Source: Actinotalea sp. Marseille-Q4924
GTDB lineage: Bacteria > Actinomycetota > Actinomycetes > Actinomycetales > Cellulomonadaceae
DNA: 64,000 bases
Direction of reading: 5' to 3'
NCBI RefSeq assembly: GCF_916618755.1
Contig: NZ_CAKAKB010000003.1
Location: 930,001-994,000 of the forward strand
The translations under genes were made by a program, and so were the position numbers. Positions 49,546-57,284 of this stretch are shown piece after piece; position 1 is the first letter of the stretch, and each line of letters begins with the position of its first letter. The notes under the pieces were generated by a model. That model worked only from the letters and a program-made list of their open reading frames with translations, searched no databases and had not been told where the DNA came from.

Positions 49546-49944
49546 TCAGTGCGCGTGCTGCCCGCGGGAGAACTCGAAGACCCAGCCGATCAGGGCGATG
49601 ACGGCCACCGCGGCGCCGATGAAGAACAGCCACCAGCCGACAGCCAGGGCCGCGAAGCAGATGGCCGCCGAGAGCCCCACCACGAAGGGCCACCAGCTCC
49701 AGGGCGAGTAGACGCCCTGCTCCCCCGCTCCCTGCTCGACCTCGGCGTACGGGTCGTCCTCCGGCCGTGCGTCGATCCGCCGGGCGACGAGCGCGAGGTA
49801 GAAGCCGATCATCGCTGTGAGCCCGGCCGTGAGGAGCAGCGCGGCGGTGCCGACCGGCTCCCAGCCGCTCCAGAAGCCGTAGACGAGCCAGATGAAGACG
49901 AAGAACGGCGTCAGGATGACGAAGAGCCTCGTCTCGGTCCTCAT
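49546..49944 (-). CDS. ctaF: Actinobacterial cytochrome c oxidase subunit IV
   Basis: 132 residues with four hydrophobic helices: about 5-25, 32-52, 82-100 and 104-124. The motif [16 protein letters not shown] is typical of CtaF, an actinobacteria-specific oxidase subunit needed for assembly of the bc1-aa3 supercomplex. The ATG overlaps the ctaD stop (ATGA), giving the operon order ctaC-ctaD-ctaF. Confidence 0.92.
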
Positions 49945-51773
49945 CGCTGGCCCTCCTCGTCGTCACGTGCCGGACGGTCCTCCGGGCGAGGCCCGTCGTC
50001 GATGATGGTCGCCGACGACTGCTCGGGGTGGGCGTCGCCCGTCGCGAGCCGCTCCCGGCCCAGGGCGGTCTGACCGCGGCGGTCGGCCTCCCAGTCGAAC
50101 GGGCCGTCGGAGTCCGGCTCGACGTGGTCCATCGCCGCCACCTCCGGGTGGTGCAGGTCGAACGCGGGACGCTCAGAACGGATGCGCGGCAACGACGTGA
50201 AGTTGTGCCGCGGCGGCGGGCAGGACGTCGCCCACTCCAGGGAGTTCCCGTACCCCCACGGGTCGTCCACGACCACGCGGGGCGCGGTGCGCCACGTGAC
50301 GTAGACGTTCCACAGGAAGGGCAGGGTCGAGGCCGCGAGGATGAACGAGCCGACCGTGGAGAGCTGGTTCATCCAGGTGAAGCCGTCCTCGGGCATGTAG
50401 TCCGGGTAACGCCGCGGCATGCCCACGACGCCCAGCCAGTGCTGCACGAGGAACGTCGCGTGGAAGCCGAAGAACAGCAGCCAGAAGTGGATCTTGCCGA
50501 GGCGCTCGTCGAGCATCCGACCGGTGAACTTCGGCCACCAGAAGTAGAAGCCGGCGAACATCGCGAAGACGACGGTGCCGAAGACGACGTAGTGGAAGTG
50601 GGCCACGACGAAGTAGGTGTCGGTGACGTGGAAGTCGAGCGGCGGCGAGGCCAGGATGACGCCGGTCAGACCGCCGAAGAGGAACGTCACCAGGAAGCCG
50701 ATCGACCAGAGCATGGGCGTCTCGAACGTCAGCTTGCCGCGCCACATGGTCCCGATCCAGTTGAAGAACTTCACACCGGTGGGGACGGCGATGAGCATCG
50801 TCATGAGCGCGAAGAACGGCAGGAGGACCGCACCCGTCGCGTACATGTGGTGCGCCCATACCGTGACGGAGAGGGCGGCGATGGCGATCGTCGCGTAGAC
50901 GAGGCCCTTGTAGCCGAACAGCGGCTTGCGGCTGAAGACCGGGAAGACCTCGGAGACGATGCCGAAGAACGGGATGGCGATGATGTAGACCTCGGGGTGC
51001 CCGAAGAACCAGAACAGGTGCTGCCAGAGCATGGCGCCCCCGTTCTCGGGGTTGAACACCTGCGCGCCCAGCCGACGGTCCGCTCCGAGGGCGAACAGCG
51101 CCGCGGCCAGCGGGGGGAACGCCATGATCACGAGCAGGCTCGTGACGAGGATGTTCCAGGTGAAGATCGGCATCCGGAACATCGTCATGCCGGGGGCACG
51201 CATCGTGATGATCGTGGTGATGAAGTTGACGGCACCGAGGATCGTGCCGAAGCCACCGAGCGCCAGGCCGAAGACCCAGAGGTCACCACCCAGGCCCGGG
51301 GAGAACGTCGTGCTCGACAGCGGCGCGTAGGCGAACCACCCGAAGGACGCCGCGCCCTGCGGCGTGAAGAACCCCGAGACGGCGATGAGGCCGCCCCAGA
51401 AGTACATCCAGTAGGCGAGCATGTTGAGCCGCGGGAACGCGACGTCGGGGGCACCGATCTGCAGGGGCATGATGACGTTCGCGAAGCCCGCGAACAGCGG
51501 TGTCGCGAACAGCAGCAGCATGATCGTGCCGTGCATCGTGAAGAGCTGGTTGTACTGCTCCTTGCTCTGCAGCACCTGCATCCCCGGCACGAACAGCTCG
51601 GCGCGGATGATCAGCGCCATGAGACCGCCGACGGCGAAGAAGAAGAAGGAGGAGATGAGGTAGAGGTAGCCGATGGTCTTGTGGTCGGTGGAGGTGAGCC
51701 ACTTCACCACCGTCCGTCCCCTCGTCTGACGCCGGGGCGCCAGCCCGGGGACCCGTTCGATCTGCGCGACCAT
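49941..51773 (-). CDS. ctaD: Cytochrome c oxidase subunit I (aa3-type)
   Basis: 610 residues with twelve membrane helices. It holds haem a, the haem a3/CuB centre and the proton channels. Visible signatures: [11 protein letters not shown] (haem a His), [13 protein letters not shown] (CuB His and the cross-linked Tyr), AHHMYATG, and [13 protein letters not shown] (haem ligands). The K-channel Lys lies in [12 protein letters not shown] hydrophilic C-terminal tail of about 70 residues is usual in actinobacteria. The ATG shares a base with the ctaC stop. Confidence 0.97.
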
Positions 51774-52675
51774 CAGCCCTCAGTTCCTTCCACGGCGCCG
51801 CCCTCACCGGACGGGATCGCGTTGTCGTCGCCACCGTTCTGGTCACGGTCGAGCTCGGGCCCGAGACGGCCGGTCTGGCCCGCCTCGCGGAGCGACTCGA
51901 TGTGCTGCGCGTACTCCTCCTGGGAGACGACGGCGACGTTGAACAGCATGCCGGAGTGGTGCTCGCCGCAGAACTCGGCGCACTTGCCCGCGTAGACGCC
52001 CTCGGCCGTCGGGACCACCTGGAACACCCGGACGTCCTGCGGGAACATGTCCTTCTTGTACAGGAACGCCGGCACCCAGAACGAGTGGATGACGTCGCGT
52101 GATCGCAGGTGGAACTCCACCCGCTGGTCCACCGGCAGGTACAGCGTCGGCAGGGTCTCGGGGTTGCCCGGTGCACCGACGTCCGCGACATGGACCCCCG
52201 TGTCCCAGACCTCCTCGTCGAGGTAGTTGAAGTCCCAGCTCCACTGCTTGCCGTAGACCTCGACCGTGAGGTCCGGCTCCGCGCTGGTGTCCTCGAGGGC
52301 GCTCATGTCCCTGGCGGTGTACGCGAACAGCACGCCGATCATGAGGACGGGGATGACCGTGTACATGATCTCCAGCGGCACGTGGTACCGGAACTGGACC
52401 GGCAGGACGTCGTCGTCCTTGCGCTTCCGGTACACGGCGACGCACCAGAGGATGAGACCCCAGACGATGATGCCGACCGCGAGGGCAGCGATCCAGGAGC
52501 CGACCCAGAGGTTGGTCACCCGCTCCGTCTGGTTGGTCACCTGCGTGCCGTCGTCGGTGCCGGGCAGCCAGCCGCGCTGGGCCTCGGTGGAGCAGCCGGT
52601 CACCGCGATCGCCACGACGGCGGTCAGGACCGCGGTCCTGGTGGCGCCCCAGCGACGGCGTCGGGGGTGTTGCAC
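51773..52675 (-). CDS. ctaC: Cytochrome c oxidase subunit II (aa3-type), lipoprotein
   Basis: 300 residues. A lipobox AVTGC puts the lipidated Cys at about residue 28. Two membrane helices (about 55-78 and 100-122) precede a cupredoxin domain. The CuA site is [12 protein letters not shown], with a further His in [10 protein letters not shown], and the electron-entry region is [12 protein letters not shown] chose the GTG at 52675 because AGAGAGG lies 9 bases upstream; the GTG two codons earlier (52681) is almost as good. A TAGGCT -10-like box at 52811-52806 would give a leader of about 125 bases. Confidence 0.95.
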
Positions 52676-52805
52676 GTCCACACGCGCCTCTCTGTCACTC
52701 GTCCCCGGCACGGGCGCCCAGGGCCGCCGCAACGTCGCGCTGCGGCGGGCCGCCGGGCCACCGGTCGGCAGCGCCGCACCCGGGACCTTGGTCCTCGTCG
52801 AGCGC

Positions 52806-52811
52806 AGCCTA
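52806..52811 (-). promoter_or_regulatory. -10 box of the ctaCDF operon
   Basis: TAGGCT on the minus strand, about 130 bases before the ctaC start. The 268-bp divergent region also holds the leaderless promoter of the cysteine-desulfurase-like gene. Confidence 0.4.
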
Positions 52812-52931
52812 TCGCGGGACCACGGGCCCTCCCTCCCCCGGTCCGGACCTGGCGCGTCGCACCGGCTGACCCGTCTCAGGCGCACCACAGCACGGCCGGG
52901 TCGACGCGACGCCGGAGGCTCCGCGGGCACC

Positions 52932-52937
52932 TATCGT
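52932..52937 (+). promoter_or_regulatory. Leaderless-type -10 box of the cysteine-desulfurase-like gene
   Basis: TATCGT ends 6 bases before the GTG at 52944, and no Shine-Dalgarno is present. Confidence 0.55.
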
Positions 52938-52943
52938 GGCGGC

Positions 52944-54083
52944 GTGGAGCACGCTCGCGTCTACCTCGACGCCGCCGGTCGGGCGCCCCTGCACGCGGCG
53001 GCCGTGGAGGCCTGGCGGGCGGCCGAGGCGGAGGGGTGGGCCGACCCTCGCGGGCTGCACGCCGAGGGCCGCCGGGCACGGCTGCTCCTGGAGGGGGCCA
53101 GGGAGTCGCTCGCTGCGTCGCTCGGGTGCCGCACCGAGGAGGTCCACCTCCTCGCCTCCCACACCGCGGCACTGCACGGCGGGGTCCTCTCGGTGACACG
53201 CGCGCGGCGACGGACCGGGACGCGGGTCGTGGCCTCTGCGGTCGAGCGGGCCGCGGTCCACGCCGCCGCGCGCTTCCTCGACGCCGACGGGCCGGCGGCC
53301 GTGCCCGTGGACGCGACCGGCCGCGTCGACCTCGATGCCTGGCGCGATGCCGTCTCGGCACCGGGCGTCGCCCTGGCGGCGCTCCAGCACGCGAACGGCG
53401 AGGTCGGCACGGTACAGCCCCTCACGGAGGCGCTCGCCGCCACCCGGCAGCACGGCGTGCCCCTCCTGGTCGACGCCGGCGCGAGCGTCGGGCACCTGCC
53501 CGTGCCCCCCGAGTGGGACGTGATCACCGCTGACCCGGCCGCGTGGGGCGGCCCGGCCGGCGTGGGTGTGCTGGCCGTGCGGTCCAGGACCCGGACGGTC
53601 CCTGCCTGGCCCGAGGACGAGGACACGTGGTCACCGGGAGGCGTGAGCGTCCCGGCGGCGTTCGCGGCCGCCGTGTCGCTGGCGGCGGTCCTGCGCGACC
53701 GGGAGGAGGAGGAGCGCCGTCGGCGGGCCCTGGTCGACCGGCTGCGTGGACGGGTCTCGCGCGAGGTGCCCGACGTCGAGGTCGTGGGCGACCCGGCCGA
53801 GCGCCTGCCGCACGTCGTGACGTTCTCCTGCCTCTACGTCGACGGCGAGGCGCTGCTCGGCGAGCTGGACCGCCACGGGTTCGCGGTCGGGTCGGGATCG
53901 GCGTGCACCTCCTCGGCGCAGGAGCCGAGCCACGTGCTCGCCGCGATGGGCGCGCTCACCCACGGGAACGTCCGGATCGGGCTGCACCGGACGACGACCG
54001 CGGAGGACGTGGACAGGTTCTGCGACGTGCTGCCCGGCGCCGTCGCCCACGTCCGCGGCCTGACGGGGGCGACGGGTCTGTGA
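52944..54083 (+). CDS. Cysteine desulfurase-like class V PLP-fold protein lacking the PLP lysine
   Basis: 379 residues with the NifS/IscS layout: VYLDAAGRAPLH at the N-terminus, LQHANGEVGTVQP, VPLLVDAGASVGHLPV, and the mobile Cys loop GSGSACTSSAQEPSH with Cys321. At the PLP site, where desulfurases have SAHK, this protein reads ADPAAWGGPAGVG, so both the His and the Schiff-base Lys are replaced (Ala200 aligns with Lys). The usual Gln of DxQS is also missing. The translation contains no lysine at all. It therefore cannot use normal PLP chemistry; it may be a pseudoenzyme, scaffold or sulfur carrier. The GTG is leaderless, and the stop overlaps the TusA-like gene. Confidence 0.87.
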   Translation: MEHARVYLDAAGRAPLHAAAVEAWRAAEAEGWADPRGLHAEGRRARLLLEGARESLAASLGCRTEEVHLLASHTAALHGGVLSVTRARRRTGTRVVASAVERAAVHAAARFLDADGPAAVPVDATGRVDLDAWRDAVSAPGVALAALQHANGEVGTVQPLTEALAATRQHGVPLLVDAGASVGHLPVPPEWDVITADPAAWGGPAGVGVLAVRSRTRTVPAWPEDEDTWSPGGVSVPAAFAAAVSLAAVLRDREEEERRRRALVDRLRGRVSREVPDVEVVGDPAERLPHVVTFSCLYVDGEALLGELDRHGFAVGSGSACTSSAQEPSHVLAAMGALTHGNVRIGLHRTTTAEDVDRFCDVLPGAVAHVRGLTGATGL

Positions 54084-54364
54084 GCGTCGTCGTCGACGCC
54101 CGCGGCCTCCTGTGCCCGCTGCCGGTGATCCGCCTCGCCGCCGCCGCGCGGGACCTGCCCGACGGCACCCGCGTCACCGTCCTGTGGACGGACCGCGCCG
54201 CCGAGCACGACATCCCCGCGTGGGCCCGCCTGCGCGGCCACCGCGTCGTCACGGACACCGACGACGACGGCGACGGTCCTGCGACGCACGCGCCGGTCGG
54301 CCGCACGACGGTCCTGCTCGGGACGCACGACGGGCCGGCACCCGCAGGTACCGGCCCGTCGTGA
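54080..54364 (+). CDS. TusA-like sulfur carrier protein
   Basis: 94 residues. VDARGLLCPLPVIRLAAAARD carries the TusA signature CPxP with Cys12, the persulfide-bearing residue of sulfur relay proteins; the helix-strand core ends near HDIPAWARLRGHRV. The GTG overlaps the stop of the desulfurase-like gene (GTGA), so the two are translated together and may act as donor and acceptor. A Gly/Asp-rich tail is atypical. The target pathway (tRNA thiolation, Fe-S assembly or cofactor sulfuration) is unknown. Confidence 0.83.
   Translation: MSVVVDARGLLCPLPVIRLAAAARDLPDGTRVTVLWTDRAAEHDIPAWARLRGHRVVTDTDDDGDGPATHAPVGRTTVLLGTHDGPAPAGTGPS
54327..54362. terminator. Bidirectional terminator between tusA-like and erpA-like genes
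   Basis: ACGACGGGCCGG and CCGGCCCGTCGT form a perfect 12-bp stem with a 12-base loop. It overlaps the end of the TusA-like gene and lies 13 bases past the stop of the convergent ErpA-like gene. Confidence 0.8.
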
Positions 54365-54374
54365 TGCCCGTCGC

Positions 54375-54725
54375 TCAGGCGAAGGAGCCGCCGCACGCGC
54401 AGGACGAGCCTGCGTTGGGGTTGTCGATCGTGAAGCCCTGCTTCTCGATCGTGTCGGCGAAGTCGATCGTCGCGCCCTCGAGGTAGGGGACGCTCATCCG
54501 GTCGACGACGACCTCGACGCCGTCGTAGTCCTTGACGGCGTCGCCGTCGAGCACGCGCTCGTCGAAGTACAGCTGGTAGATCAGGCCGGAGCACCCGCCG
54601 GGCTGCACCGCCACGCGCAGGCGAAGGTCGTCGCGGCCCTCCTGCTCGAGCAGCGTGCGCACCTTCCCGGCGGCGACGTCGGTCAGGATCACGCCGTGGG
54701 TCGACGTCTGGGTGGTCTCGCTCAT
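54375..54725 (-). CDS. Iron-sulfur cluster insertion protein (ErpA/HesB family)
   Basis: 116 residues. An A-type Fe-S carrier: the three conserved cysteines occur in PGGCSGLIYQL and in the C-terminal SSCACGGSFA. It should receive clusters from the Suf system and insert them into targets such as quinolinate synthase or respiratory proteins encoded nearby. The ATG at 54725 begins MSETTQTSTHGVILTD. M. tuberculosis has an equivalent gene (Rv2204c) next to a glycerate kinase, as here. Confidence 0.93.
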   Translation of the reverse strand: MSETTQTSTHGVILTDVAAGKVRTLLEQEGRDDLRLRVAVQPGGCSGLIYQLYFDERVLDGDAVKDYDGVEVVVDRMSVPYLEGATIDFADTIEKQGFTIDNPNAGSSCACGGSFA

Positions 54726-54820
54726 CGTGTCTCCGCAGCATCTCGGGGGCTGTCGTCGGTGCCAACGCATCGCCGGCCCGCCCGTGTTCCCGTCCAGGGT
54801 ACGACCCCGGAGGTGGGACC

Positions 54821-56002
54821 TCAGCGCGACCAGGTGCGCGCCACCCGTTCGACCCGTGCCCGGAGAGCGCGCGCGACCTCGCCGCCGTCCCGGGACAGCA
54901 CCTCCCCGGGCCGTTCCGCCACCGCGTAGACCCCCGAGACGCCGGCCGCGCCCCACTCGCGACGACCGACGTGCACCTCGCCGGCCACCGCCACCACGGG
55001 GACCGCCCGCCGCAGGGCCGCGGCGGCCACGGTCGCGACCACGCCGTCGTGGAGCGAGTGGCCGTCGAGCGCGCGCTCGCCGGTCAGGACGAGGTCCGCG
55101 TCGTCGAGGCGCCCGTGCAGGCCTGCGGTCTCCGCACCGACGTGGGCACCCGGCCGCAGGACGCCGCCGAGCGCGGCCACGACGAACCCGAGCCCGCCAC
55201 CGGCACCGGCGCCGGGCAGCTGCGCGAGCCGCCGGGTGTGCTCGCGGCCGTCACCGGCCGGCACGAGCAGGTCGCGGCGGAACGCGTCCCCCGCGACGAC
55301 CTCGCCGACGAGGTGGGCGAGGGCGCTCAGGGCGCGCTCCAGGTCCTGGCCCTCGTCCTGCTTCACCCGCCGCGCCGACGCGAGCGCGGCACTGGTGCCG
55401 TGCAGGCCGAGGAGCTGGACGTCGGAGTCGACCGCCCCGACCAGGTGCACGGACGCCAGCTCGCGGCGCAGCTCCGCGAGGCCGTCGAGGTCGGCGGCCG
55501 ACAGGCCCGACAGCGCGGCCCCGCCGCGGCGCAGCGCCGGTGCGGCCAGGCCGAGCCCGGCGAGCACCCCCGCGCCGCCGTCGTGCGTGGCGACCCCGCC
55601 GACGGCCACGACGACGCGGCGGATCCCGTGGTCGAGCACGGCACGCAGCGCCTGCCCGAGACCGTACGAGCTCGTCACCGACGGGTCCTCGACGCCGGCG
55701 AGCAGGTGCGGCCCCAGGACGAGGGCCGCCTCGAGGTAGGCCGTGGGGCCGTCGGCGTCGTCGTGGACGAGCACGGGGACCGGCACGTCGGCACCGTCGG
55801 GACCGGCGACCGTGACGGGCAGGACCTCGCCGCCGCGGACGGCGCGCACGGCCTCGGTGAAGCCCGGCCCGCCGTCGGACAGGGGCAGCCGCACCAGCGC
55901 GTCGTCCGGCGCCGCGGCTGCCCAGCCGGCGGCCATGACCTCGGCCGCCTGGGCCGCGGAGAGGGCGTCGGCGAACCGGTCGGGGGCCACGAGGATGCGC
56001 AC
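54821..56002 (-). CDS. Glycerate kinase (GckI/GarK family)
   Basis: 393 residues. It should phosphorylate glycerate with ATP. Family blocks include APDRFADALSAAQAAEVMAAG near the N-terminus (shown in part), LSDGGPGFTEA, GVATHDGGAGVLAGLG, GAGAGGGLGFV and LVLTGERALDGHSLHDGV. Canonical APDSFKGSLSA becomes APDRFADALSA, so the usual Lys is lost; substrate or activity could differ. The GTG at 56002 follows a CACGAT hexamer by 6 bases, and the longer upstream frame lacks family sequence. Position agrees with Rv2205c. Confidence 0.88.
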   Translation of the reverse strand: MRILVAPDRFADALSAAQAAEVMAAGWAAAAPDDALVRLPLSDGGPGFTEAVRAVRGGEVLPVTVAGPDGADVPVPVLVHDDADGPTAYLEAALVLGPHLLAGVEDPSVTSSYGLGQALRAVLDHGIRRVVVAVGGVATHDGGAGVLAGLGLAAPALRRGGAALSGLSAADLDGLAELRRELASVHLVGAVDSDVQLLGLHGTSAALASARRVKQDEGQDLERALSALAHLVGEVVAGDAFRRDLLVPAGDGREHTRRLAQLPGAGAGGGLGFVVAALGGVLRPGAHVGAETAGLHGRLDDADLVLTGERALDGHSLHDGVVATVAAAALRRAVPVVAVAGEVHVGRREWGAAGVSGVYAVAERPGEVLSRDGGEVARALRARVERVARTWSR

Positions 56003-56063
56003 CGGGTCATCGTGCCCCACCACCCCCTTCGGTCCGCGACCGCCCTGTGGGAGACTGCCGCGC

Positions 56064-57284
56064 GTGAGCACCGCCACCAGCGACGCCGGCGCCGGGACGA
56101 CCGCCGGCTTCGTCGAGCCGACACCGTCCGCGCTCCTGCTGCTGGGCCAGGGCAGGGACCTGGCGTCCGAGCGTGGCGTCGAGTGCCCGGGGGCCCTGCC
56201 GTCCCCGAGCGACCCCGACCTCGTCGAGCGGGCGCGCGCGGCGCGTGCGGCCCTGGGCGACAGCCTCTTCGTCCTCGGTCACCACTACCAGCGCGACGAG
56301 GTCATCCAGTTCGCGGACGTCACCGGAGACTCGTTCCGGCTCGCCCGGGAGGCCGCCGCACGCCCCCAGGCCGAGCACATCGTCTTCTGCGGCGTGCACT
56401 TCATGGCCGAGTCCGCCGACATCCTGACGGCGCCGGACCAGAAGGTCCTCCTGCCCGACCTCGCCGCCGGCTGCTCCATGGCCGACATGGCAGCCATCGA
56501 GCAGGTCGAGGAGGCCTGGGAGGTCCTCGCCGACGCCGGTGTGGCCGACAGCACCGTCCCCGTCACCTACATGAACTCCTCCGCGGCGATCAAGGCCTTC
56601 ACCGGCCGGCACGGCGGGACCGTGTGCACGTCCTCCAACGCCCAGGTCGCCCTGCGGTGGGCCTTCGACCAGGTCGGCGGGGCGGAGGGGCAGGGGACGG
56701 TGCTCTTCATGCCGGACCAGCACCTGGGCCGCAACACCGCGGTGCTCCAGCTGGGCCTGCGCCCCGAGGACTGCGTGGTGTTCGACCCGCGCCGGCCCGG
56801 CGGTGGGCTCACCGCGCAGCAGCTCCGGGACGCCCGCATGGTCCTGTGGCGCGGGCACTGCTCGGTGCACGGCCGGTTCTCGGCGCGCAACGTCAGCGAG
56901 GTCCGGGAGCGCGTGCCCGGCGTGACGGTGCTGGTGCACCCGGAGTGCACCCACGAGGTCGTCACCGCCGCGGACATGGTGGGCTCGACCGAGTACATCG
57001 TCCGGGCGCTGGGCGCGGCGGAGCCGGGCTCGTCGTGGGCGATCGGCACCGAGCTGAACCTCGTGCGCCGTCTCGCCCGCCAGCACCCGGAGCTGGACGT
57101 GCACTACCTCGACTCGACGGTGTGCTTCTGCTCGACGATGAACCGCATCGACCTGCCGCACCTGGTCTGGACCCTGGAGTCGCTGGTCCAGGGCCGGACC
57201 GTGAACCGCGTCGTCGTGGACGCCGACGACGCGCACTGGGCACGCGTGGCGCTGGACCAGATGCTCGCTCTGCCCGGGCTGTAG
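56064..57284 (+). CDS. nadA: Quinolinate synthase
   Basis: 406 residues. It condenses iminoaspartate with dihydroxyacetone phosphate to quinolinate for NAD synthesis, using a [4Fe-4S] cluster. The three cluster cysteines are in IVFCGVHFMAES, LVHPECTHEVV and STVCFCSTMNRI. An N-terminal extension of about 50 residues before the fold is common in actinobacteria. The GTG at 56064 is preceded by GAGACT with a 7-base gap. nadB and nadC are not adjacent. The neighbouring ErpA-like gene could supply its cluster. Confidence 0.95.
   Translation: MSTATSDAGAGTTAGFVEPTPSALLLLGQGRDLASERGVECPGALPSPSDPDLVERARAARAALGDSLFVLGHHYQRDEVIQFADVTGDSFRLAREAAARPQAEHIVFCGVHFMAESADILTAPDQKVLLPDLAAGCSMADMAAIEQVEEAWEVLADAGVADSTVPVTYMNSSAAIKAFTGRHGGTVCTSSNAQVALRWAFDQVGGAEGQGTVLFMPDQHLGRNTAVLQLGLRPEDCVVFDPRRPGGGLTAQQLRDARMVLWRGHCSVHGRFSARNVSEVRERVPGVTVLVHPECTHEVVTAADMVGSTEYIVRALGAAEPGSSWAIGTELNLVRRLARQHPELDVHYLDSTVCFCSTMNRIDLPHLVWTLESLVQGRTVNRVVVDADDAHWARVALDQMLALPGL

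Follow-up and report, generated by a model that had tools for sequence, protein, structure and literature searches.

What is left for a protein built like a cysteine desulfurase to do once the lysine that should hold its cofactor is gone? This question is raised by a gene pair of Actinotalea sp. Marseille-Q4924, located in a stretch of 64,000 nucleotides (positions 930,001 to 994,000 of contig NZ_CAKAKB010000003.1; hereafter the window), in which a class V cysteine-desulfurase-like protein of 379 residues without a single lysine is encoded directly ahead of a TusA-like sulfur carrier. A first-pass annotation, made from the letters of the window, had proposed that this protein cannot be a normal pyridoxal 5'-phosphate (PLP) enzyme and that it acts jointly with the TusA-like protein. 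Comparison with relatives points, at a probability that we put at roughly 45%, to a PLP-free persulfide relay feeding TusA as the most likely function of the lysine-less protein.

Residues kept and residues lost

The protein matches the class V aminotransferase fold (Pfam Aminotran_5, PF00266) over its full length with an E-value of 1e-33, above the cut-off, and it carries the QHANGEVG and GSGSACTSS motifs; the open reading frame (ORF), the Pfam match and the motifs thus bear out the class V protein, QHANGEVG region, Cys loop and complete lack of lysine described in the first pass. The NCBIfam equivalog cut-offs are not reached, neither for NifS (205.1 versus 530.75 bits) nor for IscS (122.9 versus 643.2 bits). 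The SAHK motif had been read as DPAAW. Alignment sets the SAHK-W of lysine-bearing orthologues against DPAA-W, so that the replacement of the lysine stands and is placed more exactly: Ala200 occupies the lysine site, and the residue after it, Trp201, is ancestral, which rules out Trp as the replacement of the lysine. Lys, His and Gln are missing, as the first pass had reported: the equivalents of Lys206, His104 and Gln183 of E. coli IscS are Ala200, Arg102 and Ala180, and Ser203 and His205 are replaced by Asp197 and Ala199. We take His104 of IscS to stack on PLP, Gln183, Ser203 and His205 to be PLP contacts, Asp180 to pair with the pyridine nitrogen and Arg354 to bind the substrate carboxylate. 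Asn155 of IscS was considered as a retained substrate contact and rejected, for it aligns with Gly152 and not with Asn151. In the predicted structure, the loop of residues 320–327 that bears Cys321 has a predicted local distance difference test score below 50. Judged by its residues, the protein cannot work as an ordinary PLP-dependent desulfurase.

The total absence of lysine is less odd than it appears, because the window has a G+C content of about 75% and because the catalytic lysine is the only lysine in 9 of 47 lysine-bearing orthologues. Chance in high-GC DNA was rejected as the cause of the catalytic loss: it accounts for the missing other lysines but not for the catalytic one, the only one which those nine proteins retain.

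The relatives come from searches of 59 relatives, a class-wide set of 394 genomes, 30 chosen genomes and a phylum-wide set of 396 genomes, with at most 30 loci taken per search in the wider ones. Twelve of the 210 profile hits were left out of the counts, namely two copies of the window (L004 and L009; the window is counted as L127) and ten partial rows (L037, L046, L169, L170 twice, L176, L178 twice and L179 twice). The remaining 198 rows comprise 131 lysine-less rows (116 distinct sequences at 98.5% identity, the window's included), 47 lysine-bearing orthologues from elsewhere in the class, 16 relatives from outside the class and 4 canonical paralogues. The search profile was built from lysine-less proteins, and the numbers of lysine-less and lysine-bearing proteins are not population frequencies.

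With E. coli IscS as the reference for residue positions, each distinct sequence was counted once in the two groups, which are defined by the Lys206 position itself (0/116 versus 47/47). The equivalents of Cys328 and Arg354 are present in all 116 lysine-less and all 47 lysine-bearing sequences, that of Asp180 in 115/116 and 47/47, and Gly318 is invariant like Cys321 and Arg344. Thr76 is matched in 81/116 versus 45/47. The other positions have changed nearly throughout the lysine-less group: His104 is found in 10/116 versus 47/47, with Arg instead in 101/116, Gln183 in 2/116 versus 39/47, Ser203 in 5/116 versus 47/47 and His205 in 1/116 versus 43/47. The lysine site is filled by Asp in 89 of the 116 lysine-less sequences, and 90 of them contain no lysine anywhere. 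Among rows with Asp at this site, 96 of 98 have Arg at the His site, and 11 rows with Ser or Ala have kept the His, which suggests that the lysine was lost first.

Could PLP, or pyridoxamine 5'-phosphate (PMP), still be used without a covalent lysine, giving weak or altered activity? Retention of the Asp180 and Arg354 equivalents, and in most sequences of Thr76, is in line with such use, and PMP enzymes in which His replaces the Lys exist. However, the equivalents of His104, Gln183, Ser203 and His205 are mostly gone along with the lysine, and most of the proteins have no other lysine to offer, so we give this alternative very little chance.

A TusA partner at a shared locus

The GTGA overlap with a CPxP TusA-like gene noted in the first pass is confirmed at 54080–54083, where the TusA ORF begins within the stop codon of the 379-residue ORF; through it the two genes are probably translationally coupled. 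The carrier remains below the cut-off of the NCBIfam TusA equivalog NF001423 (34.4 versus 78 bits), and no other TusA of this genome exceeds the Pfam cut-off. A TusA accompanies 103 of the 116 lysine-less sequences (101 adjacent, 2 fused; 13 without) and 46 of the 47 lysine-bearing orthologues (32 adjacent, 14 fused as one ORF; 1 without). The choice of partner had required a Cys in the match, and a rerun without this filter left the counts unchanged, none having been excluded. In the partners of the lysine-less proteins, the equivalents of TusA Cys19, Asp45 and Asp51 are intact in 103/103. A genome-wide TusA match was obtained in 19 of 27 chosen genomes (E-value 0.01), and five of the eight genomes lacking one (G009, G019, G021, G026 and G035) are same-family genomes where no copy of the pair was found. 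At the same threshold, G061 carries the lysine-bearing protein and no TusA in its genome.

Seven lysine-less loci (L054, L056, L088, L099, L104, L111 and L124) have no TusA match downstream, and in four of them (L088, L099, L104 and L124) the otherwise near-invariant Trp201 is Val; these loci may represent a third state of the family. In G001, G006, G016, G022, G034, G044 and G047, TusA domains were also seen elsewhere, within open frames of about 820–910 codons, perhaps multidomain rhodanese/TusA oxidoreductases.

The gene for CtaC, cytochrome oxidase subunit II, adjoins the pair divergently in 129 of 131 lysine-less rows and 45 of 47 lysine-bearing rows. Because it stands beside 174 of these 178 rows together, the lysine-less and lysine-bearing genes are one family at the same locus.

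Probable repeated loss of the lysine

The first-pass annotation had named conserved loss in close homologues as a check on its claim, and close relatives with an intact lysine as evidence that would tell against it. All 35 same-order orthologues that cover the site (L010–L045; 39–81% identity for the 22 aligned) lack the lysine. A sequencing or frame error is ruled out, as the loss is common to relatives. When one genome per species was scanned, at least 526 relatives were found among 590 stretches. Of the best 80 named loci, which were kept, 77 lack the lysine; most of the 80 belong to Cellulomonas, Actinotalea, Isoptericola, Promicromonospora, Oerskovia, Cellulosimicrobium and Sanguibacter. 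Two records with lysine-less copies are titled Sphaerisporangium cinnabarinum (L062) and Proteobacteria bacterium (L066); the motif of the former is identical to that of Cellulosimicrobium (L082 and L107), and both records may be mislabelled or contaminated.

Intact orthologues do occur in other families of the class, in Kribbella, Catellatospora (two) and many further genomes, with SA(H/R)KWGGP in place. They do not refute the claim but point to descent from a probably working desulfurase. The ancestor probably had the lysine, because all 16 relatives from outside the class and all 4 canonical paralogues have it.

How many times was it lost? In a careful tree of the gene itself (82 representatives, trait columns removed; L180, L045, L166, L181 and L174 left out), the lysine state needs 6 changes, 4 of them forced by well-supported branches, and one change suffices in 0% of 200 bootstrap trees. 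A quick gene tree forces only 2 changes, and the approximately unbiased (AU) test on the gene tree does not reject a single lysine-less clade (p 0.179). A tree of CtaC and part of CtaD, built from the 66 of 87 representatives with a usable ctaC, also needs 6 changes, of which at least 5 are forced, and it rejects a single lysine-less clade (p-AU 0.0002). If the gene travels with its neighbours, the best reading of these trees would be that the lysine disappeared some five or six times while the locus stayed the same, although counts of changes leave room for a regain.

The protein remains under purifying selection, with a ratio of nonsynonymous to synonymous substitution rates (dN/dS) of 0.18–0.21 against its two nearest relatives and 0.32–0.41 against five more distant ones.

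Possible roles of the pair

The ancestor of the pair was probably a working cysteine desulfurase that had a TusA acceptor of its own. Several actinobacterial lineages, this one among them, have lost the Schiff-base lysine and then, it seems, most PLP contacts, but have kept the protein body with its mobile Cys loop. Without bound PLP, Cys321 would take sulfane sulfur from another source and hand it to Cys12 of TusA; the donor could be a working desulfurase such as SufS or the MnmA-linked enzyme, but also a rhodanese or some small persulfide. We favor this relay because Cys321 is universally kept even though the lysine and most PLP contacts are gone, and because the adjacent or fused TusA has its reactive residues intact. 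The lysine-bearing orthologues are likewise joined to TusA, and E. coli IscS passes sulfur to TusA, its Cys328 lying about 4 Å from TusA Cys19 (PMC2854127). That the lysine was apparently lost repeatedly while the locus was conserved argues in the same direction, as do the low dN/dS against the two nearest relatives and the presence of a single TusA in this genome, together with its absence from the five same-family genomes in which no copy of the pair was found. Other sulfur sources are also at hand: the genome (about 3.6 Mb in 6 contigs) holds a SufS-type gene with an adjoining IscU/SufU-type protein, a canonical desulfurase adjoining mnmA, and 10 rhodanese matches. The sulfur-passing half, made up of the Cys loop and mostly a TusA with its reactive residues, has been kept, and the sulfur-making half has gone; a relay is the simplest reading of this pattern.

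A related possibility is that the emptied PLP pocket now binds a persulfide that bears a carboxylate, such as cysteine persulfide. Arg344 would hold the carboxylate, a new pair of residues 102 and 200 (Arg102/Asp200, with Asp in most relatives and Ala here) would fill the place of PLP, and Cys321 would take the outer sulfur and deliver it to TusA. We consider this unlikely; if true, a PLP enzyme would have given rise to a cofactor-free transpersulfidase on several occasions.

Several observations weigh against the relay. Cys321 and Arg344 could be retained for folding or for another partner, and no sulfur source is linked to the pair. Thirteen of the 116 lysine-less sequences have no adjacent TusA, with the Cys filter off as well, and still retain Cys321; G120 and G263 carry the lysine-less protein with no TusA genome-wide at an E-value of 0.01. 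The residues with which IscS touches TusA are partly retained (Trp45 is Arg, Glu49 is lost, Asp52 is mostly Asp or Glu), and the canonical paralogues resemble the lysine-less family at these positions, so docking to TusA gains no specific support from them. By dN/dS the protein outpaces CtaD in 7/7 comparisons and ErpA in 5/6, and three lysine-less matches (L045, L173 and L174) each contain one in-frame stop. The joint function proposed in the first pass thus holds in that the loss is usually accompanied by TusA, although the partnership is not obligate; as to the relay, scaffold or novel pair that it had listed, a joint role is partly supported and sequence does not separate these functions.

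The protein might instead be a non-catalytic chaperone, scaffold or regulator that binds TusA, and perhaps also pairs with another desulfurase in a mixed dimer, but carries no sulfur itself. This is the next most likely reading after the relay, though we find it doubtful: such strict invariance would be unexpected for a Cys without a role, and nothing supports a mixed dimer with the paralogue linked to MnmA (about 40% identity). The faster evolution and the in-frame stops, together with repeated lysine losses and the lack of TusA in some lineages, would also suit a functionless relic in slow decay. Lysine-bearing matches (G236, G133 and G200) likewise have one in-frame stop each, and a relic is very unlikely given the low dN/dS against the nearest relatives, the invariant Cys, Arg344 and Gly318, and the same locus retained in nearly every lysine-less row. 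Five lysine-less copies (L173, L174, L045, L180 and L181), mostly from small genomes, are fast-evolving; the active-loop Cys is retained in them.

The surroundings of the pair (Table 1) consist of ctaC and ctaD, divergent upstream, and of erpA, convergent downstream, followed by a glycerate kinase gene and nadA, the last identified by its sequence without a family search. The pair and the cytochrome oxidase genes share a divergent promoter region, and the order ctaD, ctaC, pair, erpA, nadA (window 49941–57284) is retained in the majority of named loci whose flanks are long enough. In Myceligenerans salitolerans (L092, 10001–12490) the pair is inverted relative to its neighbours, with ctaC on the same strand after it and with erpA and nadA at its opposite flank. 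Scans of the window for tRNA genes and Rfam families found nothing. The ErpA/HesB gene of the first-pass annotation is present, but it lends little support to a joint role because it is convergent and forms a separate transcription unit.

Table 1. Coordinates of the pair, of the residues discussed and of the flanking genes within the window
Feature	Position	Strand	Evidence
Lysine-less class V cysteine-desulfurase-like protein, 379 residues	52944..54083	+	ORF, GTG start, 0 Lys
Arg102, equivalent of IscS His104	53247..53249	+	alignment
Ala200, equivalent of E. coli IscS Schiff-base Lys206	53541..53543	+	alignment to IscS and lysine-bearing orthologues
Cys321, equivalent of persulfide-forming IscS Cys328	53904..53906	+	alignment
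Arg344, equivalent of IscS Arg354	53973..53975	+	alignment
TusA-like sulfur carrier, 94 residues, CPLP motif	54080..54364	+	PF01206, 63.7 bits, cut-off 28.6
Cys12 of the TusA-like protein (CPxP), equivalent of TusA Cys19	54113..54115	+	alignment
ctaC (cytochrome oxidase subunit II), divergent neighbour, outside the pair	51773..52675	-	context
erpA (A-type iron-sulfur carrier), convergent neighbour	54375..54725	-	NCBIfam ErpA, 118.8 bits, cut-off 117

The best match in the PDB by profile is 4eb5, the IscS of Archaeoglobus fulgidus. In that protein (PDB 4eb5, 4eb7 and 4hvk) the lysine is replaced by Asp and the active-loop Cys is kept; it is reported to lack desulfurase activity and to provide a Cys ligand to the [2Fe-2S] cluster of IscU, and the Schiff-base lysine is also absent from IscS1 of Methanosarcina acetivorans (PMC7585200). 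A lysine-less desulfurase is therefore not new in kind. By analogy, Cys321 could be the ligand to an iron-sulfur cluster or metal on a partner, and the prevalence of Asp at the lysine site and the erpA gene next door would fit. Nevertheless, we regard this as quite unlikely: erpA belongs to its separate transcription unit, and the one PF01592 (IscU/NifU-type) match in the genome lies beside the SufS-type gene, where it is likely SufU, with none at this locus. We know of no TusA that holds an iron-sulfur cluster. The IscS of A. fulgidus is archaeal and works with IscU, no TusA partner being described in the text consulted, whereas the family here is actinobacterial and TusA-coupled, has lost the lysine repeatedly together with most PLP contacts, and has Ala at the site in the window.

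The E. coli IscS–TusA complex (PDB 3lvj and 3lvk) involves the same two protein families, with the Cys328-type loop and TusA Cys19, Asp45 and Asp51 retained here. Unlike the lysine-less protein, E. coli IscS is a PLP enzyme with Lys206, has several acceptors and lies in an operon without tusA. Closer at hand, the lysine-bearing actinobacterial orthologues are the same gene in the same ctaC-adjoining place, joined to TusA in the same way; they differ from the window protein in retaining Lys and His104 throughout and Gln183 in most cases, and by these residues they should be working enzymes. The canonical MnmA-linked desulfurase (L002 and 20 others) is a paralogue that, unlike the window protein, keeps the lysine in 21/21 genomes, counted on the alignment, and has MnmA at 18/21 loci and no TusA by L002.

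As far as our searches show, what is new is the actinobacterial TusA-coupled family, the repeated loss of its lysine and the pattern of residues kept and lost; no account of such a family was found in a literature search that covered few subscription papers and included PMC7188994. Annotation by fold alone would label the lysine-less proteins cysteine desulfurases.

For a large part of this actinobacterial family we know of no route to desulfurase chemistry. The lysine has apparently been lost several times and the Cys, usually with TusA, has been kept, which makes the family a natural experiment that parts sulfur-making from sulfur-passing. The question that thereby becomes testable is whether a desulfurase body without sulfur production of its own can still serve to load TusA.
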